From a virus: DNA of 64,000 bases. The notes under the pieces were generated by a model. That model worked only from the letters and a program-made list of their open reading frames with translations. It was not told where the DNA came from and made no database searches. Positions 4,611 to 63,556 of the stretch are shown here, piece by piece. The stretch is from positions 1 to 64,000 of IMG/VR virus record IMGVR_UViG_3300031237_000273; one strand, given 5' to 3'. Position numbers and translations under genes: made by a program. The first letter of the stretch is position 1. Every line of letters starts with the position of its first letter.

Positions 4611-6590
4611 GTGAATACGGAAAATCATTCCCAGACGGCCGCCTTTCTCTGGTCGATTGCCGACCTGCTGCGTGGTGATTTCAAGCAGTCCCAGTACGGC
4701 CGCATCATCCTGCCATTCACCCTGCTGCGGCGCATGGAGTGTGTGCTGACGCCGACCAAGGATGCCGTGATTCGCGAGTTCTACGCCCAGGAAGGCCGCC
4801 CGGACACCGTACGTGAAATGTACATGCTACGTGCAGCAGGTGGCCTGCAGTTCTTCAACGCTTCGCCGCTGACTCTCGGCACTCTGTCCGATACCCAGAC
4901 CTCGGCAGACCTGATGAGTTACGTGCAGTCCTTCAGCAAGGACGCACGCGAGATCTTCGAGCACTTCCACTTCGAGGACTTCGTTCTACAATTGGCCAGC
5001 GCCAACTTGCTCTATCAGGTAGTGCAACGGTTTGCTGCCACCGACCTGAGCCCCGAACGCATCAGCAACTTCGGCATGGGCATCATCTTTGAAGAGCTGA
5101 TCCGCAAGTTCGCGGAAAGCTCCAACGAAACCGCGGGTGAGCACTTCACCCCGCGCGATATTGTGCACCTCACCACTTCGTTGGTGATCACCGATCAGGA
5201 CCACAAACTCGCGCCCAACAGCATCGTCACCATCTATGATCCAACCGCGGGTACGGGTGGTTTTCTGTCCGAGGGTGACGAGTACATCCAGTCCATCAGC
5301 GAAAAGGTCAGCGTGTCCCTGCACGGACAGGAACTGAATCCCGAGTCCTATGCCATCTGCAAAGCGGACATGCTGATCAAGGGCCAGGACGTGATCAGCA
5401 TCAAGCTCGGCAACACGCTGTCCAACGACCAACTGGCCAACAAGCACTTCGACTTCATGCTCAGCAACCCGCCGTTCGGCGTGGAATGGAAGAAGGTGCA
5501 AAAGCAGATCACCGACGAGCACAGCCACAAGGGTTTCGATGGCCGCTTCGGCCCAGGTCTGCCACGGGTGTCCGACGGTTCGCTGCTGTTCCTCCTCCAC
5601 CTGGTCAGCAAAATGCGTGACCCGCGCGACGGTGGCTCGCGCATCGGCATTATCCTTAACGGGTCGCCGCTGTTTACCGGCGGTGCGGGCTCGGGAGAGT
5701 CGGAGATTCGCCGCTACCTGCTGCAAAACGACCTAGTGGAAGCCATCGTCGCGCTGCCGACGGACATGTTCTACAACACCGGCATCGCCACCTATGTGTG
5801 GATACTCAGCAACCACAAAGCGGCTGAGCGCCAGGGCAAGGTCCAGTTGATCGACGGCAGCCAGCACTACGCCAAAATGCGCAAGTCGCTGGGCAGCAAG
5901 CGCCAATACATCACTGAGGATCAAATCAGCGAGCTGGTGCGCCTGTATGGCAGCTTCGAGCACACCGCGCAGAGCAAGATCTTCCCCATTGACGCCTTTG
6001 GCTACCGGCGCATCACCGTTGAGCGCCCGCTACGGCTAAAATTCCAAACCAGTGCCGAGCGCATCGCTAAAGTGCTGGAAGAAAAAGCCCTGCAGAAACT
6101 CGACAGCGCCGCTCAGAAACAACTGATGACCGCCCTGCAAGCGATGGACGCAAGCCAACTGCACCGCAACCGCGAGCAATTCAGCAAACTGCTGAAAAAA
6201 GCCCTCACCGCGCACAGCGTCATCCTGAGCACGCCGGAGCTAAAAGCCCTGCTCAATGCACTGAGCGAGCGCGACCCCGAGGCGGATATCTGCATGACCA
6301 AGGGCCAGCCGGAAGCAGACGCAGGACTGCGCGATAACGAGAACGTGCCGTTGGGCGAGTCGGTATACGAATACTTCCAGCGTGAAGTCATCCCCCATGT
6401 GCCGGATGCCTGGATCGACGAAAGCAAAACCGATGCTCAGGATGGCAAAGTCGGCATTGTCGGCTTCGAGATTCCCTTCAACCGGCACTTCTACGTATTC
6501 CAGTCGCCGCGCCCGTTGGCCGAAATCGACCGCGACCTGAAAGCTTGTACCGACCGCATCAAACAAATGATTGAGGGGCTGTCGGCATGA
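4611..6590 (+). CDS. hsdM: Type I restriction-modification system, methyltransferase subunit HsdM
   Basis: HsdM methylates adenine within the recognition site chosen by HsdS, using S-adenosylmethionine, and is part of both the M2S methylase and the R2M2S restriction complex. The N-terminal helical domain (to about residue 160) is followed by the N6-adenine methyltransferase fold: AdoMet-binding motif [10 protein letters not shown] near residue 209 and catalytic NPPFG near residue 285. The C-terminal 200 residues are charged and helical. A length of 659 residues is somewhat long for the family. Translation starts at GTG with AAGGA eight bases upstream, and the stop overlaps the hsdS start as ATGA, so the three genes form one operon. 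Confidence 0.95.
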
Positions 6591-7948
6591 GCTTGCTTGC
6601 ATATCAGAAGCTGAAACCGTCAGGTATAGAGTATTTGGACGGAGTTCCAAATGACTGGTCATTAAAACGACTTGGCGATCTTGTTGCTTTTGCTCAGGGC
6701 AAGGCGCATGAGCCATATATTGACGATGATGGCGACTATATCTGCGTTAACTCTAGGTTCGTTTCGACGTCGGGGAGAACGATTAAGACGTGCAGTATCA
6801 ATCTGACCCCTGCTTCGTTAAATGACATATTGATGGTAATGAGCGACCTGCCCAATGGGCGGGCGCTTGCTCGGGCATATTACGTTGATGATCACGGTAA
6901 GTACGCCGTGAATCAGCGGGTGTGTCGAATCACGGCAGAAAAGGCACATCCTCGTTTCTTGTTTTACTTGTTAGATCGTCACCCTGGACTTATGCAGAAT
7001 GACGATGGCGTGCATCAAACCCATCTTTCAAATGCCGATTTTCAAAAACTAAAGCTCTATCTGCCATCAATTTCAGAACAAAACCAAATCGCACGCTTTC
7101 TTGATCACGAAACCGTCCGCATCGACGCGCTGATCGAAGAGCAGCAGCGCCTGATCGAATTGCTCAAGGAAAAGCGCCAGGCCGTGATCTCCCACGCCGT
7201 AATCAAGGGCCTCGACCCTACGGTGCAGATGAAAGACTCCGGCGTGAAGTGGCTAGGCGAGGTGCCGGCACATTGGGAAGTGACACCCCTGAAATATGTG
7301 GTTAGCAATCTAGGACAAGGATGGAGCCCACAGTGCGATAACTATCCAGCTGAAGATGGCGAATGGGGGGTATTAAAAGTTGGATGTGTAAATGGTGGCC
7401 AATTCAATGCTGGTGAGAATAAGCATCTGCCAGTTGAGCTTAAGCCAGATGAGGAGCTAGCAATCAAGCAGGGCGACTTATTGATATCAAGGGCAAACAC
7501 CAGAGAACTGGTTGGCAGCGCCGCTGTTGCCGACAAAAATTATCCGCGACTAATGCTGTGCGACAAACTTTATCGATTGCGCTTGAACATGGAGCGAGCT
7601 ACTCCCGAGTTCTTAGCTCTCTACCTCAGATCTAGCGCCCCTAGAAGTCAGATTGAATTGGCCGCAAGTGGCGCAAGTGACTCGATGCAAAACATCTCGC
7701 AGTCAGTCGTAATGGATATGACTCTTTCCTTGCCGCCACTTGGCGAGCAGGAGGAAATTCTGCGGTTCCTCAGCGTCATACTGAAAAGTTCCGATGACTT
7801 GGTTGCTGAAGCCACTAGTCAGCGCTACCTGCTCCAAGAACGCCGTTCCGCTCTAATCTCCGCCGCCGTTACCGGCAAAATCGACGTACGTGGCTGGCAG
7901 CCATCAGCCACTGCGACATTCCCTGAATTAGCAGAAGAGGCTGTGTAA
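6587..7948 (+). CDS. hsdS: Type I restriction-modification system, specificity subunit HsdS
   Basis: HsdS sets the bipartite DNA sequence that the complex recognises. The 453-residue protein has two variable target-recognition domains (about 1-155 and 220-380). Each is followed by a conserved helical spacer: [13 protein letters not shown] near 160 and [10 protein letters not shown] near 390, the two repeats expected of a complete subunit. Coding composition in the first recognition domain is visibly more AT-rich than in hsdM or hsdR, which fits domain exchange. Both ends overlap the neighbouring hsd genes by a few bases. Confidence 0.95.
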
Positions 7949-10900
7949 TGGCAGACAGCAAGGAAGCGCAGTTCCAAAAGGACATTATCGATGTACTAGC
8001 CACTCAGGGCTGGTTGGTCGGCACGGCCAGCAACTACAATCGCCATACCGCGCTGTATACCGAAGATGTACTGAGCTACTTCAAGGACGCTTGGCCGGAG
8101 CGCTGGGAAAAGTTCGCCAAGGCCAACCCGAATGCACCAGAAGACATACTGATACAAAAGCTGGTGCGTGAGCTGGAGCAGAGCGGCACCCTGGATGTGC
8201 TACGCCATGGCTTCAAACTACCGGCGGTGAAGGTAGAGCTGTGCAGCTTCCAGCCCGACCACGGCATGAACCCGGACACCCTAAAGCGCTACCAGCGCAA
8301 CCGCTTGCGCGTGGTGCCCGAGGTGTCTTACTCGCCGCACGCGCGTGAAGCCGGCAGCAACGGGCAAAGCTACAACCCTCGACTGGATCTAGTGCTGTTC
8401 GTCAACGGCATTCCCACTGCCACGCTGGAGCTAAAAAGCGAATTCAAGCAGTCGGTGGAAAACGCCAAGCGTCAGTACCGTTACGACCGCCCTGTGAATG
8501 ACCCGCTGACGCGCAAGCCCGAGCCGTTGCTGACCTTCAAGCGCGGCGCGCTAGTGCACTTCGCCGTGGGCCAGAACGAGGTGGCAATGACCACCAAGCT
8601 GGCCGGCAAGGACACCTTTTTCCTGCCGTTCAACCTCGGCACCGATGAGGGCGGCGCTGGCAACCCGATGCCTGCCGACGACAGCCAGTACGCCACCGGC
8701 TACCTATGGCAACGACTGTTCCAGCCAGATGCCTGGCTCAAAGTTCTGGGGCGCTTTCTGCACCTGGACAAAAAGACCAGCGAAAGCTTCGATGGCACGC
8801 CGGTTACCAAGGAAACGATGATCTTCCCGCGTTACCACCAATGGGAAGTGGTCAATAAACTGGTCAACACCACTCGCGCCGAAGGGCCTGGCAAGCGCTA
8901 TTTAGTCCAGCACAGCGCCGGCTCGGGCAAGTCCAACTCCATCGCCTGGACGGCGCATCAACTGGCTTCACTGTACGACACCGCTGGTCAGCGCCTGTTT
9001 AACTCGGTGATCGTGGTCACAGACCGAACAGTGCTGGATAGCCAATTGCAGAACGCCATTTACCAGTTCGAGCACGCCCAGGGCGTGGTCAAACCGATCA
9101 GCCGTGATGTCGGAAACCAGAGCAAGTCCGAACAACTGGCTGAGGCGCTGGCTGAGCAGACGCGCATCATCATCGTCACCATCCAGACTTTTCCTGCATT
9201 ATTCGATGCCCTAGACAAGTACCCCAAGCTGGCTAGCGGGCGGTATGCGGTAATCGCTGACGAGGCGCACTCCTCGCAAACTGGCTCGTCGGCCAGCAAG
9301 CTGAAACAGATTCTAGGCAGCGATGCACTGGACGCCGAGGAAGTCAGCGCCGAAGAGTTGTTGGACGCAGCCGTACAGGCGCGCCAACCGAATGAGCGCA
9401 TCAGTTACTACGCCTTCACCGCCACGCCCAAGGCCAAGACCTTGGAGCTGTTCGGTCGCCCGGCCGACTCCACGCTGCCGGCCAGTTCCAGCAACAAGCC
9501 GGAGGCTTTTCATCTGTATTCCATGCGCCAGGCTATCGAGGAGGGTTTCATCCTCGACGTGCTGCGCAACTACACCACCTACAGTACCGCCTGGAAGATC
9601 GCCCACCCAGATGGCGAAGACGACGAGGTGGACAGCAAGAAGGCGCGCATCAAGCTAGCGCGCTGGGTGCGTTTGCATCCATACAACATCAGTCAAAAGG
9701 TTGAGGTGATCGTCGAGCACTTCCGCGCCAATATCCGCAATCTGCTCAATGGCCAGGCCAAGGCCATGGTGGTGACCAGCAGCCGCCAGGAAGCGGTGCG
9801 TTACCAGTTGGCGGTGAGAGCCTATGTACAGCAGATGGGTTACAACGATGTGCACCCGCTGGTGGCGTTCTCCGGCAGCGTGCTACCGGATGAGGTGATC
9901 CCCGAAGAGGTGACGGAAAGCAGCAGCCTGCTCAACCCTGGCCTGAATGGCCGCGACTTGGCAGTGGCGTTCGACACCCAAGACTTCAACGTGATGATCG
10001 CGGCCAACAAGTATCAGACCGGCTTCGATCAGCCCAAGCTGTGTGCCATGTACGTGGACAAAAAGCTGCAAGGCGTGGACTGCGTGCAGACCCTGTCGAG
10101 GCTGAACCGCACTTTCGGTGACAGCAAGGAAACCTTCATTCTCGACTTCTTCAACGAGCCGCAGGACATTCTTGACGCCTTCCTGCCGTACTACACCAAA
10201 GCCGAGCTGACCGATGTAACCGACCCGCAGATCATTTATGACCTGCAAAAGAAGTTGGATGCAGAGGGAATCTATCACTGGCAGGAGGTCGAGGCATTCT
10301 CCATAGCCTTCTTCGACCCCAAGGCGGCTGCTAGCAAGCTCAGTTACTACTGCACTCCGGCAAAGGAGCGCTTCGCCAAGCGCTACGCCTTCTCGGTGGA
10401 GTCGCGCCAGCAGGCGCTGGACTTCAAGCGCACAGCCGAAGCTAACGGCGACAGTGGTGGCCTGAAAAAAGCCGAGCACGCGCTGAAAGAGGCCGGCGAG
10501 CAGATCGATCAACTTGATCTGTTCCGAAAGAATCTGCAGAGCTTCGTGCGCCTGTACGAGTTCCTCTCGCAGATCGTGCCCTATGAAGACCGCGAACTGG
10601 AGCAGCTCTGCGTGTACGCCAAGCACCTGCACCCCCTGCTGCGCGTGGATCGCCTGCAACAAGATGACGTGGACGTGGGCGAGCTACAACTTAGTCATTA
10701 CCGCCTGAGCAAGCGCGCCGAACACCAGCTACGCCTGAACGAAGAACACGGCGAATATACCCTCAAACCCGGCAGTGACGTGGGCAGCGGCAAGCCCCAT
10801 GACCCGGAGAAGAAGCGCTTGTCGGAAATCATCGAGGCGCTGAACGATATCTTCGGAGCCGAGGTGAGCGATGACGACCAGCTGCAGTTCCTCACCGGCA

Positions 10901-11148
10901 TCGCCCAGCGCATCAGCCGCCAGGAAGATGTGATGGCTCAGGTAAACAACCACTCTGTGGATCAAGTAATGCACGGCTTGTTCCCCAAGCGCGTTCTGGA
11001 CACCGTGCTAGATGCCATGACCGACCACGAGAAACTATCGCTGGAAGTGCTGGATAACGAGACCAAGAGCCGTGCTTTTGCCTTGGTGATTTTGAAGATG
11101 CTGAAATCGGCAGCCGCCCTCGATGAATCCGGTTTGCGAAATGCCTGA
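7948..11148 (+). CDS. hsdR: Type I restriction endonuclease subunit HsdR
   Basis: HsdR translocates DNA using ATP and cuts it far from the recognition site. Near residues 147-165 lies the PD-(D/E)XK nuclease core (RLDLVLFVNG...ELK). The superfamily 2 helicase motor follows: Walker A GSGKS near 324, a DEAH box (ADEAHSSQ) near 436, and TGFDQP in the second RecA-like domain. The C-terminal 350 residues are helical and would dock onto HsdM. At 1066 residues it has normal family length and shows no break, so the system looks functional. Its ATG overlaps the last base pairs of hsdS. Confidence 0.95.
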   Translation: MADSKEAQFQKDIIDVLATQGWLVGTASNYNRHTALYTEDVLSYFKDAWPERWEKFAKANPNAPEDILIQKLVRELEQSGTLDVLRHGFKLPAVKVELCSFQPDHGMNPDTLKRYQRNRLRVVPEVSYSPHAREAGSNGQSYNPRLDLVLFVNGIPTATLELKSEFKQSVENAKRQYRYDRPVNDPLTRKPEPLLTFKRGALVHFAVGQNEVAMTTKLAGKDTFFLPFNLGTDEGGAGNPMPADDSQYATGYLWQRLFQPDAWLKVLGRFLHLDKKTSESFDGTPVTKETMIFPRYHQWEVVNKLVNTTRAEGPGKRYLVQHSAGSGKSNSIAWTAHQLASLYDTAGQRLFNSVIVVTDRTVLDSQLQNAIYQFEHAQGVVKPISRDVGNQSKSEQLAEALAEQTRIIIVTIQTFPALFDALDKYPKLASGRYAVIADEAHSSQTGSSASKLKQILGSDALDAEEVSAEELLDAAVQARQPNERISYYAFTATPKAKTLELFGRPADSTLPASSSNKPEAFHLYSMRQAIEEGFILDVLRNYTTYSTAWKIAHPDGEDDEVDSKKARIKLARWVRLHPYNISQKVEVIVEHFRANIRNLLNGQAKAMVVTSSRQEAVRYQLAVRAYVQQMGYNDVHPLVAFSGSVLPDEVIPEEVTESSSLLNPGLNGRDLAVAFDTQDFNVMIAANKYQTGFDQPKLCAMYVDKKLQGVDCVQTLSRLNRTFGDSKETFILDFFNEPQDILDAFLPYYTKAELTDVTDPQIIYDLQKKLDAEGIYHWQEVEAFSIAFFDPKAAASKLSYYCTPAKERFAKRYAFSVESRQQALDFKRTAEANGDSGGLKKAEHALKEAGEQIDQLDLFRKNLQSFVRLYEFLSQIVPYEDRELEQLCVYAKHLHPLLRVDRLQQDDVDVGELQLSHYRLSKRAEHQLRLNEEHGEYTLKPGSDVGSGKPHDPEKKRLSEIIEALNDIFGAEVSDDDQLQFLTGIAQRISRQEDVMAQVNNHSVDQVMHGLFPKRVLDTVLDAMTDHEKLSLEVLDNETKSRAFALVILKMLKSAAALDESGLRNA

Positions 11149-17329: not shown

Positions 17330-17992
17330 TTAGTTAGAGGCTTTTTTCCCCCCTTTTTTTGCACGTCTGATCAGTTTTTCGATTTCGACAATATCCTCTG
17401 GCACCTCGACTCCTGCAGCAACGAGAAGCTCTCGGGCGAGTTCTGCAGCTCTGCGTTTGGTCATCTTCGCTAAGGATGACTGCCGTAGCTTGTCTGCGGT
17501 ATCAGCCAGCAAAGCATCTCGCTGAAACTTCGGCTTCACGCCACGAATAGTTGGAGCGGCCTCCAACTTCTGCTCGCTAATATCCAACACATCGGACATC
17601 ACGGTGGCCATCGCCTCAAGGTCAGAAAGCAAGCCACCGCTGAAAAAGCACCCATGGCTACGCCAGCAGGCGTCGTTGATGAGACCCTCGACGAAAGGAG
17701 AGAAATTGCTTAGCCGCTGTAGCGTTCCACGAAGACTCAGGTGCGCCCGCTGTATTTCGCGAATTTCTTCGTGGCGCGCTGGTCCTTTTTCCGTTTCGCG
17801 GGTGACCGCTCTGTAGGACCCAAGCCTTTGCTTTAACCATTCCTGAAGATCGCCGTCGTGATGTTCGGCCAGGTCAGCGATAATTGCCTGAGCAGGATCA
17901 GACAGGCTTTCATCGACCAAATCACCTGTACCCCACTCGGGTTTATTGTCGAATACTGGAAGTGCCTTTGATCGCTTGCCTCGTTTCGTCAT
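17330..17992 (-). CDS. Hypothetical protein co-transcribed with integrase
   Basis: A 220-residue, helical, basic protein with a Lys-rich tail (RRAKKGGKK). It overlaps the integrase stop as ATGA, so the two are translated together. No domain is recognised. Proteins at this position in P4-like islands are usually island-specific accessory factors. Positive charge at both ends makes nucleic-acid contact plausible but unproven. Confidence 0.6.
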   Translation of the reverse strand: MTKRGKRSKALPVFDNKPEWGTGDLVDESLSDPAQAIIADLAEHHDGDLQEWLKQRLGSYRAVTRETEKGPARHEEIREIQRAHLSLRGTLQRLSNFSPFVEGLINDACWRSHGCFFSGGLLSDLEAMATVMSDVLDISEQKLEAAPTIRGVKPKFQRDALLADTADKLRQSSLAKMTKRRAAELARELLVAAGVEVPEDIVEIEKLIRRAKKGGKKASN

Positions 17993-19302
17993 ACGTGTAA
18001 CCCCCGTTTCAAGCTCACAACATCAGTGTCCCGGTGCGCAAAATCATAGGGCGTGATGTGCTTTTCCCGGTTGGCGTCCAAGTAGTCAGCCCACCACGTC
18101 ATCATCAGTCGACGCTCTTCCAGATGCTCAGCCTTGTGGATATAGGCCGCGCGCACGCCGTTGCGCTCTTGGTGACTCATTTGCCGTTCAACCGCGTCAC
18201 GCGACCACAGGCCGGACTCGACCAACGCGGAACAGGCCATAGTGCGGAAACCGTGCCCGCAAATCTCTATCTTGGTGTCGTACCCCATGCGGCGCAGTGA
18301 CTTGTTTACGGTGTTCTCCGACATTGGCCGCCAGTGGTGGTGATCTCCTGGCAGCACCAGCTCAAAACGACCGCTCAGCTGGCGTATCTGTTCCAGCACC
18401 TCAAGCGTCTGGCGTGACAACGGGACAAGGTGCGGAGTCCCCATCTTGGCTCCTCGGTGCGACCTCTTGACACCCTCGATTGGTGCCCGTTCGCCCGGAA
18501 TCGTCCACATGCTCCGGGTAAAGTCGAACTCAGACCAGCGAGCAAAACGCAGCTCACTAGAACGAATGAACACCAGTAGAGCGAGGCTTACAGCAAGACA
18601 GGTAAGCGGTCGTCCGGTGTCAGCCTCGCAGCGTTGCAACAACTCCGGCAACCGCTCAAGGGGCAAGGCAGGGCGGTGTTTGGTCTTGCGGGTGGCCGTC
18701 CCCCCCACCAGATCAAGCGCCGGGTTGTATTCGATGAAATCGCGCTGAACGGCGATTCGCATGATTCCGGCGATGCGCTGGCGCAGTCGCCCAACCACAT
18801 CAAGCGCGCCGCGCTTCTCTACCGCCTTCAGACAGGCCAGCAGGTCGCGGGTTTTCAGATCGGATACGGGGCGTTTGCCCAGCATGGGGAAAAGATCGAC
18901 CTCGATCTCTTTCAACACCCTGACCGCGTGATCCTTCGACCATTTTCCGGACATGCTGGCGTGCCATTCCAGGGCCAACGCCTCAAAGGTGTTCCCCGCC
19001 TCACTGGCCGCCTCGATCTTTGCTTGCTTAGCGCTCTCGATGGGGTCTTGGCCATGCGCCAGCAACTCGAGTGCATCGGCTCGACGTGCGCGGGCGGCTT
19101 TCAGAGTGAGAGCCGGGTAGTTGCCGAACGTAGCCAGACCGGGCTTACCGTTTGGCTTTTTATACTTGAAGCGCCAGACCTTGGTGCCGGTAGCCTTTAC
19201 AAGCAAAAAAAGCCCCTGCCCGTCGAACAGGGTGTAATCCTTCTCGCGGGACTTGGCGGCTTCACATTTGGGGTCTGTCAGAGGAGTTACGGTGCGCGCC
19301 AT
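17989..19302 (-). CDS. int: Tyrosine integrase, P4 type (DUF4102 N-terminus)
   Basis: A 437-residue recombinase that inserts and excises the island at a tRNA 3' end. The N-terminal arm-binding domain reads LFDGQGLFLLVKATGTKVW and FGNYPALTLKAARA, typical of DUF4102 integrases. The catalytic domain shows the first Arg in RSSELRFARW near 245, HGFR near 355 and the nucleophile Tyr in AAYIHK near 395. The start lies 160 bp from the 3' end of tRNA-Leu, with paired arm-type repeats between. This is the standard layout for an element integrated in that tRNA. Confidence 0.92.
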   Translation of the reverse strand: MARTVTPLTDPKCEAAKSREKDYTLFDGQGLFLLVKATGTKVWRFKYKKPNGKPGLATFGNYPALTLKAARARRADALELLAHGQDPIESAKQAKIEAASEAGNTFEALALEWHASMSGKWSKDHAVRVLKEIEVDLFPMLGKRPVSDLKTRDLLACLKAVEKRGALDVVGRLRQRIAGIMRIAVQRDFIEYNPALDLVGGTATRKTKHRPALPLERLPELLQRCEADTGRPLTCLAVSLALLVFIRSSELRFARWSEFDFTRSMWTIPGERAPIEGVKRSHRGAKMGTPHLVPLSRQTLEVLEQIRQLSGRFELVLPGDHHHWRPMSENTVNKSLRRMGYDTKIEICGHGFRTMACSALVESGLWSRDAVERQMSHQERNGVRAAYIHKAEHLEERRLMMTWWADYLDANREKHITPYDFAHRDTDVVSLKRGLHV

Positions 19303-19330
19303 AGGTATACGCCTCGATATCGAACCGATA

Positions 19331-19351
19331 TATACCTAAACGTATACCTAA
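19331..19351. repeat. Right copy of 21-bp direct repeat (integrase arm-type site)
   Basis: Identical to 880-900 and made of two ATACCTAAA units 12 bp apart. It lies between the integrase start and the tRNA-Leu terminator, where the integrase promoter and arm sites are expected. Confidence 0.6.
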
Positions 19352-19392
19352 ATCGTGGGGCTGTACAGGAACATACGGGGATATTCAGACAC

Positions 19393-19417
19393 AAAAAAAC
19401 CGGCTATAAGGCCGGTT
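19393..19417 (-). terminator. Intrinsic terminator of tRNA-Leu
   Basis: AACCGGC / GCCGGTT with a six-base loop, followed on the minus strand by seven T. It lies 46 bp past the tRNA-Leu 3' end and isolates the integrase from tRNA transcription. Confidence 0.8.
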
Positions 19418-19462
19418 TCTCTAGGTTTCAGGTGTTTACGGGAACATCTGAAATCATACTAT

Positions 19463-19549
19463 TGGTGCCCGAAGCCGGAATCGAACCGGCACGCCCTTAC
19501 GAGCGGGGGATTTTAAGTCCCATGCGTCTACCAGTTTCGCCATTCGGGC
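19463..19549 (-). tRNA. tRNA-Leu, anticodon TAA
   Basis: An 87-nt tRNA with encoded CCA. The acceptor arms GCCCGAA and TTCGGGC pair fully, the anticodon loop CTTAAAA carries TAA between GGGA and TCCC, the T arm is CCGGC-TTCGATT... type, and a long variable arm is present as in all leucine tRNAs. It is intact and serves as the insertion site of the integrase island on its 3' side. Confidence 0.97.
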
Positions 19550-58950: not shown

Positions 58951-59211
58951 CTATTCAACTAACTTCTTTGGTGCAGATGCATCGAGCAGCCAAGTGGGCT
59001 CAAACGAGTGGCCCCTTTGCTTTGCGGCTGTTGCCAGAAGCACCGAGTATTGAGTTTCACCGGTGTAGTCGGTCCGCGGCAGGCTTGCAGTCTGACGCCA
59101 CTTATTCAATGCCTGATAACTCCTGTCACAAACCTTCGCGGCGGCCCCGATGCCGCCTACTGCTTCAAAAGCGAACGCAATAGCGTTCGGAAAATCCGCG
59201 GGGTCCAACAT
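58951..59211 (-). CDS. Cro-like repressor
   Basis: An 86-residue helix-turn-helix protein. EAVGGIGAAAKVCDRSYQAL and NKWRQTASLPRTDYTGE are the pattern of Cro/YdaS-type proteins. AGGAGG stands six bases before the ATG. It is divergent from cI, with shared operators between, and heads the cro-cII-traR-primase operon. Confidence 0.85.
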   Translation of the reverse strand: MLDPADFPNAIAFAFEAVGGIGAAAKVCDRSYQALNKWRQTASLPRTDYTGETQYSVLLATAAKQRGHSFEPTWLLDASAPKKLVE

Positions 59212-59224
59212 GGCAACCTCCTTT

Positions 59225-59243
59225 TATCAACCTAGAGTTGATA
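59225..59243. promoter_or_regulatory. Repressor operator, left region, site 1
   Basis: TATCAAC-CTAGA-GTTGATA, a perfect 7-5-7 palindrome just upstream of the cro start. A half site ATCAAC follows at 59,250. Confidence 0.8.
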
Positions 59244-59281: not shown

Positions 59282-59300
59282 TCTCAACTCATGGTTGATA
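59282..59300. promoter_or_regulatory. Repressor operator, left region, site 2, overlapping the cI start
   Basis: TCTCAAC-TCATG-GTTGATA, one change from the perfect site. It covers the cI ATG at 59,291, so bound repressor would also limit its own synthesis. Confidence 0.75.
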
Positions 59301-60022
59301 AAAACGAATTACGCGCCGCTTTTAGCGCGCGACTACATGAAGCACTCAACGATGCGGGCGTACGCGGCCGTGGACGGGGGGTGGACATCCATCGAAAATT
59401 GAAAAGTCTAGGGGTAGACAAGACTACTCAAGCGGTTAGCAAGTGGCTTAACGGCGAAGCTATGGCAGAAGCAGATAGCATGGTCGCGCTATGTTCTTGG
59501 TTAAAAGTGCGTAGGGAGTGGCTTGAGTACGGCGTTTTGCCAAAGCAACAAACCGGTGAGAGCAATGTTCATCAGCTGGTGGCCGATGAGGAAAGCAACA
59601 TTAGCGAAATCAACCAACGCTTTGGCAAAGTTCCACTGATTTCTTGGGTTCAGGCAGGCGCTTGGTGCGAGGCCATTTCTAATTTTGAGTCCTATGATAC
59701 TGACTCTTGGCTTTCCTGCCCTGTACCGATCAGCAATCACGGATTCGCATTGAGAGTACTTGGTGATTCGATGACAAATCCAGGACCCGGAAGAAGCTAC
59801 CCTACAGGTTGCATTATTTTTGTTGATCCTGAAGCGGAAACAAAGACAGGGGACCGAGTGATCGCCCGAGTCTCCCGTACCAACGAGGCGACTTTCAAAA
59901 TTCTAGTAGAAGATGCTGGGCGCCAATTTCTGCGACCGATAAATCCGCAGTACCCAATAATCGAAATTACTGAAGAAACTCATATATGCGGCAAGGTGGT
60001 GGGCTCCTTCATCCCTGAATAA
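59291..60022 (+). CDS. LexA-like CI prophage repressor
   Basis: A 243-residue repressor. I start it at 59,291 (VDKNELRAAFSARL). The N-terminal helix-turn-helix domain includes GVDKTTQAVSKWLNGEAMAE. The C-terminal S24 peptidase has the cleavage-type Ala-Gly in WVQAGAW near 121, the nucleophile in LGDSMTNPG near 159 and the Lys in FKILVE near 201. It is therefore likely to self-cleave when RecA is active, inducing the prophage. The matching operators at 59.2 and 61.9 kb are its probable targets. Confidence 0.92.
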   Translation: MVDKNELRAAFSARLHEALNDAGVRGRGRGVDIHRKLKSLGVDKTTQAVSKWLNGEAMAEADSMVALCSWLKVRREWLEYGVLPKQQTGESNVHQLVADEESNISEINQRFGKVPLISWVQAGAWCEAISNFESYDTDSWLSCPVPISNHGFALRVLGDSMTNPGPGRSYPTGCIIFVDPEAETKTGDRVIARVSRTNEATFKILVEDAGRQFLRPINPQYPIIEITEETHICGKVVGSFIPE

Positions 60023-60040
60023 GCCCACGCCTGCAATAAA

Positions 60041-61831
60041 TTATTCCAGAGCACCTAACAATTTAAATAAGTCTGTCGCGCGTCTTTCATGCTTCAGCAC
60101 TAACTCGTTGTAAATTTTATATGCGCGAGCTAGATAGCGTGTTCCAAAAGCCGTATACGATGACGCTAGTATTTTGAATGCGACAGAGTCCAAATCCATC
60201 TCATCAGTATTAAGAAGGTAATCCGCTTCATTAATATTCAATTTCAGGACACGCTTCAGATCCTCTTCTAATGCAGAATATGTGTCCCCATCAGCATCCC
60301 ATCCACCGCACAAATTAATAGCAAATGAAACAATCAACATTGGATGGCCATTAGTGACCTTGTCTTCGGCGTGATGAAACGCAACACCTCCATGATCAAT
60401 CCTCATCAGACCGTATCCAACCTGCAGATAATTTAATGTATCCTGATCGGATATTACACTTCCTACACCAAGCCTATCAAATGCGGCCTTAAGTTGCGGA
60501 ATCAAAAATGCCCGCTCGACTAACTCTGGATTCTGCTCATACAATAGTGGAATAATATTATCCTCACTAAATGGCTTCCAGTACCTATTAATCAAGCCCA
60601 CCTGAACATCATATTCTTCAGCCAATATATACTTAGAAACAAAATACTCCTGAAAGGATCTATGCGAATAGGCAACCTGTAATCCGTCTTCAATAAGCAG
60701 GCAAGTCGCTTTTAACAAATCTTCGAGATACCCTGCCCTTTTAAATGACAACCCAAGTCTTGTACGACTCACATCTATATATTCAAGACACTCCGGCGTC
60801 GTCATCCGAAACACTCGTTTATCAAATGTGAGCAATGAGAAAAGTGAAAAAACCCTTGAGAAGTCTAAAACATCTAAGTCGGTAGCTCTCTGGCGAGAGT
60901 AAGCTCCTTTTGATGCATCATGTTTTTGAAAAAGAGCCTCATAAGCCTGACCGTAAAATACACTCAGTTTAGTGGGCACTTCAGCATTTTGATGATAAGT
61001 GAGGAGCATAATCGATAGTAACAGTGGATTAGATAGAAAAGACTTGTGTTCTACAAACAATCGATCCCTTAACTCTCTAATGAATTTTTCTTTGAAAATA
61101 TTTTCGACGGGTAATTTAGAAACAAGATCAACTGCAGATGACTGGCTTAGTGGTTCAACATGACACTCACTAAACTGATTCCATGCTCGGAATCGCTCGT
61201 CAGGCCTAGAAGAAATAAAGATCGGGCATCCTGGAAATTTTTGCGACAACGAATTTATATAGCTATCGACGCCCTCTCGCTTGGAAGCTAATAGTTCATC
61301 AAACCCGTCAAACAAGAAACAAAAATTACCAGACTTCAGGGCTTGTAAAAAAAAATCCCCCTCAATATCAAACCCACCATTTTGCATTATGAATACTATA
61401 TGCTCCTCAAGGGAACGAACAGAATCATTAAGATCCCTGAGCTCAACAAGTATCGGAGCGTACTCGCCGCCAGCAATACAGCTTAGGAATATATGACGCA
61501 TCAAAATCGACTTACCACAACCTCCCGTGCCGGCCACAATTATACGGCTGGACATCTCAATGCAACTAGAAAAATCGGGGCTCGATATTGAATCCGAGTA
61601 GCCAAATCTTAGTCCTATTGGAACATAGTAGTCATAAAAATCGACAGGAGTATCTGTACTCCATAAGCATTTCAGCTTTGAATACTTTACTCGCGACTTC
61701 AATATGTATCTTTGATAGCCAATCTCAATTTGACTTTTTTGCTCTCTAGTTTTATAGAGTCCTTTCGCGAAACTGAATACTTTCTCAATATTTGAATTAA
61801 AAATCTCTACAGCGGCTTCAACTTCATCCAT
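60041..61831 (-). CDS. NACHT-domain STAND NTPase, candidate anti-phage defence gene
   Basis: A 596-residue protein. Residues 1-95 are a helical/beta N-terminal part; 96-330 is the NACHT module: Walker A VAGTGGCGKS (101-108), Walker B FLFDGFDEL with the extra acidic pair (172-179), FISSRP sensor region (206-210). A winged-helix/helical part carries SHRSFQEYF (390-397), a common NACHT signature. The last 170 residues are helical, without visible LRR, WD or TPR repeats, so it is a short NACHT. It is convergent with cI, AT-rich, and lies between cI and the right operators, a known place for lysogeny-expressed cargo genes. Bacterial NACHT proteins can block phage; this one's activity is inferred. 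Confidence 0.85.
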   Translation of the reverse strand: MDEVEAAVEIFNSNIEKVFSFAKGLYKTREQKSQIEIGYQRYILKSRVKYSKLKCLWSTDTPVDFYDYYVPIGLRFGYSDSISSPDFSSCIEMSSRIIVAGTGGCGKSILMRHIFLSCIAGGEYAPILVELRDLNDSVRSLEEHIVFIMQNGGFDIEGDFFLQALKSGNFCFLFDGFDELLASKREGVDSYINSLSQKFPGCPIFISSRPDERFRAWNQFSECHVEPLSQSSAVDLVSKLPVENIFKEKFIRELRDRLFVEHKSFLSNPLLLSIMLLTYHQNAEVPTKLSVFYGQAYEALFQKHDASKGAYSRQRATDLDVLDFSRVFSLFSLLTFDKRVFRMTTPECLEYIDVSRTRLGLSFKRAGYLEDLLKATCLLIEDGLQVAYSHRSFQEYFVSKYILAEEYDVQVGLINRYWKPFSEDNIIPLLYEQNPELVERAFLIPQLKAAFDRLGVGSVISDQDTLNYLQVGYGLMRIDHGGVAFHHAEDKVTNGHPMLIVSFAINLCGGWDADGDTYSALEEDLKRVLKLNINEADYLLNTDEMDLDSVAFKILASSYTAFGTRYLARAYKIYNELVLKHERRATDLFKLLGALE

Positions 61832-61940
61832 TTTTTACAGTTCTCCAGTTAAAGCGTCAATGTTGAGAATCTTCAGTTATCCCCTGCGACTGTATCTTAT
61901 GACTGGCTTACTGGAAATCGCGAACAACAGAAACGAAATT

Positions 61941-61959
61941 TATCAACCGATAGTTGTTG
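61941..61959. promoter_or_regulatory. Repressor operator, right region, site 1
   Basis: TATCAAC-CGATA-GTTGTTG, with two changes in the right arm relative to the perfect site. It lies in the divergent interval between the NACHT gene and the rightward early operon. Confidence 0.7.
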
Positions 61960-61965
61960 ACACAA

Positions 61966-61984
61966 CATCAACCACTGGTTGATA
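61966..61984. promoter_or_regulatory. Repressor operator, right region, site 2
   Basis: CATCAAC-CACTG-GTTGATA, 25 bp after site 1, centre to centre. A pair of such sites would repress the early operon that begins at 62,022. Confidence 0.75.
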
Positions 61985-62021
61985 TTTGTCTCACTCTTCC
62001 ACCACAGAGCGAGGCAACAGC

Positions 62022-62198
62022 ATGCACACCATAGCCACCCTGCACGTCCATCCGGCCGTTGCTGATCCATTCCGCATCTTCGAGATTCGCCGCTTAGCAC
62101 GCGAATACGGATGCACGTTTGTCACCACCAAACCAAAGCTGAAAGCCCGCGGAACAACCGCTCCGTTCGATCCAAATGGCGGAGGGTATGCAGCATGA
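62022..62198 (+). CDS. Early phage protein, 58 aa, unknown
   Basis: First gene of the rightward early operon, with GAGGC seven bases before the ATG. HPAVADPFRIFEIRRLAREY and a basic C-terminus (TTKPKLKARG) suggest a small nucleic-acid-linked protein. The stop overlaps the next start as ATGA. Confidence 0.6.
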   Translation: MHTIATLHVHPAVADPFRIFEIRRLAREYGCTFVTTKPKLKARGTTAPFDPNGGGYAA

Positions 62199-62785
62199 GC
62201 AAGTACAAGCTGGACAACCGTTCCCTGCAACTGCTCAACGCCCAGGTCAACTTGACCGAGACCTTCAACCACACGCTAAGGTCAACACCCAAGCGTGAGG
62301 CCCTGTCGTTCCGCCTCAAAGTTGAACGCACCACATCCGACACCTTTTTCACCGTTGAACTGGGCAGCGATCGCCACACGCTGACCCTGAAGAACGAAAA
62401 AAAGATGCACCTCAAGCTGGCTGACTTCATCGAAGAGATCGTCAACGGCCCGTTTGCCCCCAGCGACGCCGTCGACCTATTGAACTTCCCCCTCGCCAAC
62501 CTGGAATACGCTCGCTTCGATGCTGAGCACAAGCAGCAGGTATTCGAGCTGGTGCGCACTGGTGGTGTCGTGAGCCTCGACATGGGTTTTGAGCTCCCCC
62601 TCCACGTCGCATTGCATCGCACTAAAACCCGCTCTGGTGTCACTACCATCATGAGCATCGGCAAGAAAAGGCCGCGCACCAAATGTTTCACCGTGTACGG
62701 CAGCGATGTCGAGATCTACAAGCAAGTGGCCGAGTCCATCAACCACCTTGCGGCAGCGGCAACACCCGCGGCGCACGCCGCTTGA
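62195..62785 (+). CDS. Early phage protein, 196 aa, unknown
   Basis: Starts at 62,195 by ATGA overlap. The protein has an alternating strand pattern (EALSFRLKVERTTSDTFFTV, GVVSLDMGFELPL) and an Ala-rich tail. No enzyme motif is seen. Position suggests a recombination, anti-host or replication accessory role, which cannot be refined. Confidence 0.65.
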   Translation: MSKYKLDNRSLQLLNAQVNLTETFNHTLRSTPKREALSFRLKVERTTSDTFFTVELGSDRHTLTLKNEKKMHLKLADFIEEIVNGPFAPSDAVDLLNFPLANLEYARFDAEHKQQVFELVRTGGVVSLDMGFELPLHVALHRTKTRSGVTTIMSIGKKRPRTKCFTVYGSDVEIYKQVAESINHLAAAATPAAHAA

Positions 62786-62795
62786 GGGGGACGAC

Positions 62796-63080
62796 ATGGA
62801 ACGCACACTCGCCCAAGCCGCGAAACACCTCGGTCTGACTAGGCCCAAGCTGATCGACCTTATGCGGGCAAAAGGTCTGCTCAATAATCGAAACCTACCT
62901 GCCTTCCCGACCCGCGATCGCGAGTACCTGCGGGTCAAGGACAGCAACTGGTACCACGAGACCGCCGGTATGCAGTACAGCCAGTCAACCCGCGTCAGAC
63001 AACCCGGCATCCGCTGGCTGGCCGATCAACTGGGGCTCGATCTACCCACCATCCCGGTAAACCACCGTGATGTGGCCTAG
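62796..63080 (+). CDS. Antirepressor C-terminal-like (KilAC-type) DNA-binding protein
   Basis: A 94-residue protein. RTLAQAAKHLGLTRPKLIDL with LMRAKGLLNNRNLPA, and a later GIRWLADQLG, match the winged-helix KilAC/AntC domain that ends many phage antirepressors; here it stands alone. GAGGGGG is upstream of the ATG. The stop lies inside the next gene's start region. Confidence 0.75.
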   Translation: MERTLAQAAKHLGLTRPKLIDLMRAKGLLNNRNLPAFPTRDREYLRVKDSNWYHETAGMQYSQSTRVRQPGIRWLADQLGLDLPTIPVNHRDVA

Positions 63081-63246
63081 GGAATACGCTCGCCAGATCG
63101 TCGCCATGCGCACACGCGAGGAGCGCAATGCTGCGCTTCTCGAAGTGCCGGATCACCTACGCGAGCTGACCAAAACACACTGCCTGAATGCCTGGAACCA
63201 CCCGGCAAGAACACAACGCAAGGAGGCTCAGCAAGCCAATGCCTAA
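63070..63246 (+). CDS. Small early phage protein, 58 aa
   Basis: Starts at the ATG at 63,070, 11 bases before the previous stop, and ends overlapping the PrtN-like start. WPREYARQIVAMRTREERNA and a helical remainder are like short proteins common in Pseudomonas phage early operons. Its overlap with both neighbours supports it as a real gene. Function unknown. Confidence 0.6.
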   Translation: MWPREYARQIVAMRTREERNAALLEVPDHLRELTKTHCLNAWNHPARTQRKEAQQANA

Positions 63247-63556
63247 CACTAGCCAGACACCACTACGACTGCGACCCGCACCCGAGTCAGTCACTATGGA
63301 ACTGCTTTACCGCACCTTCGGCGACGTGCTGATCCCGTTGGAAAAAGTCCGCGAGCAGTATTTCCGCAACCTTAACGAGCAGTCTTTTGTGGCCGAGATC
63401 AACAGCGGTCGGATTCAGCTGCCCATCACCACGCTGGACACCAGTCGCAAGGCACCGAAGTACGCGCACATTCGCCATGTTGCTTCACTGATCGACATCC
63501 GCGCCTACAAGGCAGATGAAGAGATGCTGCGACCACAGGACGATTCAACCGAGTAA
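63239..63556 (+). CDS. PrtN-like pyocin/phage activator
   Basis: A 105-residue protein. LLYRTFGDVLIPLEKVREQY, FVAEINSGRIQLPITTLDTS and KYAHIRHVASLIDIRAYK are the pattern of the PrtN family, which activates pyocin gene expression after DNA damage in P. aeruginosa. Here it would belong to the prophage's early operon and might switch on late or lytic genes. I start it at 63,239, overlapping the preceding gene by eight bases. Confidence 0.78.
   Translation: MPNTSQTPLRLRPAPESVTMELLYRTFGDVLIPLEKVREQYFRNLNEQSFVAEINSGRIQLPITTLDTSRKAPKYAHIRHVASLIDIRAYKADEEMLRPQDDSTE

Follow-up and report, generated by a model that had tools for sequence, protein, structure and literature searches.

The bNACHT proteins of bacteria are STAND NTPases, whose tripartite scheme has been summarised (PMC12169576), and those of clade 14, which carry a short C-terminal SNaCT domain, protect against both DNA and RNA phages without a discernible effector (PMC12169576). 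Defence genes are also known to be swapped at fixed prophage positions, as in the hotspots of P2/P4 in E. coli and of Vibrionaceae phages. In the latter, the hotspot lies between cI and the integrase and includes Septu (PMC9122126). A further arrangement is that of lambda rexAB and the RexAB-type genes of P. putida, exclusion genes that lie 3' of cI and whose products are present in the lysogen; P. putida has its rexAB and repressor genes in one operon (PMC12894663).

Here we describe a NACHT gene beside cI in a Pseudomonas prophage, found in a window (the whole stretch of DNA analysed, 64,000 nucleotides) taken from a virus record of 66,578 bases. Its predicted protein resembles clade 14 bNACHTs such as bNACHT02 and bNACHT12 in size class, in having a NACHT core followed by SNaCT, and in being effectorless (PMC12169576), but it ends in SNaCT13, is prophage-borne beside cI, and is likened to them by its domains. 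Its site shares with the P2/P4 and Vibrionaceae hotspots a fixed position with swapped defence genes; here, however, the phages are those of Pseudomonas, the stop codon of cI on one side and the right operators on the other mark the borders exactly, cargo and cI are transcribed toward each other, and a leader motif is common to many cargo genes. The position downstream of cI is also that of rexAB, although cI and the window cargo occupy opposite strands and the cargo is unrelated in sequence to rexAB; a co-directional layout like that of lambda rex does occur in related phages with another cI type. Neither bNACHT proteins nor defence hotspots in prophages are new; of greater interest are the slot and its leader motif, and no earlier description of the Pseudomonas slot was found in the literature searched, whose coverage left out most subscription journals. 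Judging from sequence comparison and a structure model, we consider it probable that the NACHT gene is bNACHT anti-phage cargo carried by the prophage in a swap slot between cI and the operators, where it would protect the lysogen. An NLR-related immune protein would thereby be assigned to a precise, recurrent prophage position.

A short NACHT protein ending in SNaCT13

The NACHT-SNaCT13 gene (60041..61831, minus strand, start ATG at 61831) is an intact open frame of 596 codons with no internal stop. Its Pfam NACHT domain (PF05729; residues 96-239, 61115..61546, minus strand; 49 bits against a cut-off of 26.7) holds the Walker A motif GTGGCGKS (residues 101-108, 61508-61531) and the Walker B motif FCFLFDGFDE (residues 170-179, 61295-61324), and the motif HRSFQEYF follows at residues 390-397 (60641..60664), all on the minus strand. 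The original prediction had named these three motifs, and all are indeed present. Moreover, G104, G106, K107, D175, D178, E179 and HRSFQEY are invariant across 57 short NACHT relatives, whose C-terminal ends are SNaCT13, 14, 7 and others. Its PHROGs match is phrog_18297 (311 bits), a family of phage proteins that is uncharacterised; PADLOC did not recognise it and gave a weak mad8 match.

The C-terminus had been thought to match nothing familiar. That view does not hold: residues 434-592 (60056..60532, minus strand) are a SNaCT13 domain (Pfam PF22718, 58 bits against a cut-off of 27), the least conserved part of the protein and, from its sequence, likely its sensor end. Through SNaCT13, the protein has the feature that characterises bNACHT clade 14, a short C-terminal SNaCT with no discernible effector. 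The N-terminal 95 residues had been proposed to hold an effector, which now appears doubtful. Residues 1-95 have no Pfam match, and in an AlphaFold model built from an input alignment of 57 sequences (pLDDT 88.9, pTM 0.81) they form two helices, the first at low confidence, and a few strands, with no enzyme fold. Neither Pfam nor the model thus yielded an N-terminal effector domain.

When the model was searched with Foldseek, the best solved structures were NLRC4, NLRP3 and NOD2 (E about 1e-10). A PDB sequence search with the protein as single query gave no match, and the family profile found NLRC4 and NLRP3 by sequence. Avs4, from a family that also consists of STAND NTPases, was a far weaker Foldseek match (E 7e-6). 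In contrast to Avs proteins, the window protein has about 600 residues, against 1541 in the Avs4 chain, and no large C-terminal sensor, and an N-terminal nuclease was not seen in it. As judged from sequence and model, the protein is a bNACHT, an NLR-related STAND NTPase of the short SNaCT type.

Immunity region and cargo slot

The NACHT gene lies next to a cI-like repressor gene (59291..60022, plus strand; S24 peptidase, Pfam PF00717, phrog_4). To the left of cI and reading leftward are a Cro-like gene (58951..59211, minus strand), named from its position and weak phrog_35 and carph-isopro matches, then a CII-like gene and a VapE-type primase. The convergent stops of cI and NACHT are separated by 18 bp (60023..60040), a gap that is short in related loci too and in which no terminator was found. 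Since the NACHT gene is opposite in strand to cI, it cannot ride the cI transcript, unlike lambda rex, and needs a promoter of its own. The presumed site of this promoter is the 110-bp NACHT leader (61832..61941, minus strand), where neither a clear -35/-10 pair nor the common cargo motif described below was found. A terminator inside the cI 5' end that might stop leftward readthrough was seen in the window, is not clearly conserved, and was set aside.

The palindrome ATCAAC-N5-GTTGAT, allowing at most one mismatch, has four copies and no others in the 64 kb, all conserved in related loci. On the left is a perfect 17-bp copy (59226..59242), with a second copy (59283..59299, one mismatch) over the cI start codon; on the right are an outer copy that forms the border of the cargo slot (61942..61958, one mismatch) and a perfect inner copy (61967..61983). 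At two mismatches or fewer, 12 palindromes were found against 2.3 expected, and none of 100 shuffles gave as many. From the position of the four copies, we infer that CI is their binder. The right operator pair overlaps a rightward PL-like promoter, TTGACA-18-GATATT (61957..61986, plus strand), which is conserved in related loci and points toward an excisionase-like gene and the integrase; in lambda terms, this is thus OL/PL. The original placement of the NACHT gene between cI and its right operators is correct, with the qualification that those operators control the excision/integration side.

Beyond the promoter lies a conserved 58-aa gene (62022..62198, plus strand; phrog_35204), which marks the right edge of the slot. 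It is followed by rightward early genes (62195..63556, plus strand), identified through Pfam and PHROGs as a 196-aa gene (phrog_15582), a KilAC-like gene and a PrtN/excisionase-like gene, and then by an integrase-like gene, named by eye, at record positions 64406-65473. The right operator/promoter block is conserved in related loci, and by eye the similarity ends at the outer operator. GC content is 0.40 in the NACHT slot, against 0.58-0.60 for the phage genes close by. No att repeats were found when these were looked for.

To place this arrangement among related phages, loci were collected from viral contigs via cI (80) and via the 196-aa gene (46), and further loci came from genomes and one phage record. 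The slot is bounded by the stop codon of cI and by the right operators; for measurement, the 58-aa gene was taken as its right end. Among 95 distinct slots, 8 were empty (85-121 bp) and 87 were filled, each with one to three low-GC genes, and the contents fell into 60 protein clusters. NACHT-SNaCT13 and Septu PtuAB were the commonest cargo (9 loci each), followed by an AbiC type (8). Further cargo included KAP NTPases, DUF4917/PDC-S21 with PD-T4-10_B, a PDC-S28 helicase, HIT-domain genes, a DRT5 reverse transcriptase, a CBASS cyclase with Cap15, SIR2, ABC-3C, PDC-M01 and PDC-S59. The NACHT gene had been predicted to be prophage cargo in a defence setting, and the presence of Septu, AbiC, DRT5, CBASS and SIR2 in the same slot elsewhere bears this out. 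A defence-library match was obtained in 49 of the 87 filled slots, a figure that is approximate: it comes from our own cluster assignment and from scans of the slots alone, the models for AAA ATPases match widely, several of those in PADLOC describe candidate systems, and the scan against both libraries did not extend to every cluster. Another 18 Pseudomonas genomes, found via cI alone and forming a later set, contributed 2 empty and 16 filled slots; all of their cargo was related to families already seen, and two slots were identical to earlier ones.

We conclude that the stretch from cI to the right operators is a prophage defence hotspot, with constant borders, varied and unrelated cargo, and empty alleles. 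At the cI-operator position, Pseudomonas prophages thus possess a large slot for defence cargo. About one third of the filled slots (31/87) have no family label, whether for defence or domain, and their contents are candidates for new anti-phage systems. Such unlabelled cargo was seen in the slots of L026/L128/L006, L038/L040/L080, L063/L067/L069/L143 and L105/L130/L132, among others. The natural empty and filled alleles with exact borders lend themselves to cargo swaps, by which defence, self-immunity and common control are testable.

The orientation of the cargo differs with the type of cI. In loci with a cI of the window type (at least 60% identity), the cargo was convergent with cI in all 76 of 76, with a median of 14 bp from its stop codon to the cI stop; a single exception, L246, was found in the later set. 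Where cI is divergent (about 35% identity), cargo and cI were co-directional in 8 of 11 loci, which is the lambda rex layout (L105, L106, L110, L122, L127, L130, L132 and L139).

Two features of the flanks were also observed. Past the integrase, on the opposite strand and outside the window, an open frame (L175:1630-2679; record 65529-66578) is cut by the end of the record and is possibly a second cargo gene or a host gene. At window positions 4611-11148, three consecutive genes by eye resemble a type I restriction-modification operon (hsdM, hsdS, hsdR), and at 17989-19549 a P4-type integrase gene, again by eye, adjoins a tRNA-Leu (19463-19549); together they probably mark a genomic island distinct from the prophage and to its left.

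A leader motif common to many cargo genes

Unrelated cargo genes have a common motif on their sense strand, first spotted at slot ends. The pattern TRRTGGC, which was picked from the very sequences counted, occurs in 27 of 76 leaders (3.0 expected) and in 13 of 31 cargo families. An unsupervised motif search of 66 non-redundant leaders returned TRRTGKCA-N3-TGnTATCnT with a log-likelihood of 254, compared with 65-74 for shuffled sets searched from fewer starting points than the real leaders. Most matches precede the 58-aa gene by 100-175 bases, and the motif-bearing locus sets are L026-L148 and L243-L260. In the later genome set, which here comprised 16 leaders including two from empty slots, 8 reached a motif score of at least 10, where 0.3 was expected and the maximum in 200 shuffles was 2; this test is partly independent, as some of these leaders belong to the same cargo family as members of the discovery set.

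By its sequence, the motif reads as an extended -10 together with an upstream TGGC box or an overlapping dyad. Generic sigma-70 scoring did not set the cargo leaders (8.01) above shuffles (7.96). Other interpretations were considered. A sigma-54 promoter (GG-N10-GC) fitted a subset alone and was dropped. A host regulon was likewise set aside: in 10 Pseudomonas genomes, near-perfect dyads were few and did not recur. Nor does the motif behave as a recombination site, as its matches are concentrated at one end of the slot, that of the promoter, and not at both. It is possible, if somewhat doubtful, that the slot has content-independent control, in which a common promoter-operator TRRTGKCA-N3-TGnTATCnT, with the near dyad TGATGGCA-N3-TGCCATCA, would be read by a prophage or host regulator. 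If so, the phage could switch any defence it carries, for instance by shutting it off while the phage itself grows lytically. The leader of the window NACHT gene is without a clear copy, and thus the motif does not explain expression of this gene.

Origin and function of the NACHT gene

When viral contigs were scanned with the NACHT protein as single query, no close copy was found; the profile scan gave 66 loci, mostly more distant short NACHTs. The slot NACHTs are 40-53% identical to the window NACHT, whereas their cI neighbours are 79-90% identical. This divergence beside a conserved cI fits cargo exchange and, with the low GC of the slot, upholds the original suggestion of separate acquisition. 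In a NACHT tree, the slot copies were not all joined with confidence and were mixed with copies from a chromosomal island (L176) and from another prophage (L183). The fourth Pseudomonas SNaCT13 NACHT (G354) lies outside the slot in an apparent chromosomal island beside serine recombinases, so the SNaCT13 NACHT family is not confined to the cI-operator site.

The original prediction would have been refuted by broken copies in most related prophages; this check came out in its favour, as all 9 of 9 slot NACHTs are full length. The closest pair has a dN of 0.016 and a dS of 0.153; in the remaining pairs, synonymous sites are saturated and dN is 0.11-0.42. These sequence comparisons show the NACHT gene to be kept intact under protein-level purifying selection. 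Within the protein, identity is 17-34% in the SNaCT domain versus 52-65% in residues 96-433, and amino-acid change in the SNaCT domain proceeds at about 1.6-2.2 times the rate of the whole protein. This fast-evolving end might represent the pattern expected of a sensor.

Such conservation bears directly on whether the gene arrived by chance, as a chromosomal or island gene that is functionless for the phage. The low GC of the slot would fit such an insertion, as would the relatives in the chromosomal island and elsewhere in the other prophage, but nine intact copies with the same borders and orientation and under purifying selection largely refute it already, and we regard it as very improbable. 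The gene could instead mainly tune the phage's own lysis-lysogeny switch, as antisense to cI or through its protein, with defence being secondary. Lambda RexA is reported to tune cI and hence induction, and the tail-to-tail placement of NACHT and cI, with no terminator between stops that are 18 bp apart here and a median of 14 bp apart in related loci, is consistent with this. However, dozens of unrelated genes are found at the same place, and none in some phages; the switch thus needs no specific product, which makes a tuning role unlikely.

Bacterial defence genes can also act on mobile elements other than phages, and on these grounds the NACHT protein might guard against plasmids or phage satellites, or hold the prophage by toxicity, rather than stop phages. 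Yet there is no antitoxin-like partner gene beside NACHT in the slot, and most of the recognisable cargo in other phages' slots belongs to anti-phage families, so that we give this explanation little weight. If the NACHT gene is anti-phage cargo, as we favour, the lysogen would produce its protein from a leftward promoter that belongs to the gene itself and is separate from the lytic promoters repressed by CI, and the protein would rest as an autoinhibited nucleotide-bound monomer. The SNaCT13 end would sense something that an incoming phage makes or causes, upon which the NACHT module would oligomerise. The protein may then block the incoming phage or halt growth of the infected cell, leaving the lysogen protected.

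NACHT genes were also seen elsewhere. In the other prophage (L183:5974-12438), a SNaCT13-like NACHT by eye directly follows a tail gene, a different cargo position, and its neighbourhood holds umuC/umuD-like genes and an ATPase plus HNH-like pair, again named by eye. A second, distant NACHT match (23% identity) lies at L104:16575-17783; the slot of that phage is occupied by a gene of helicase type.
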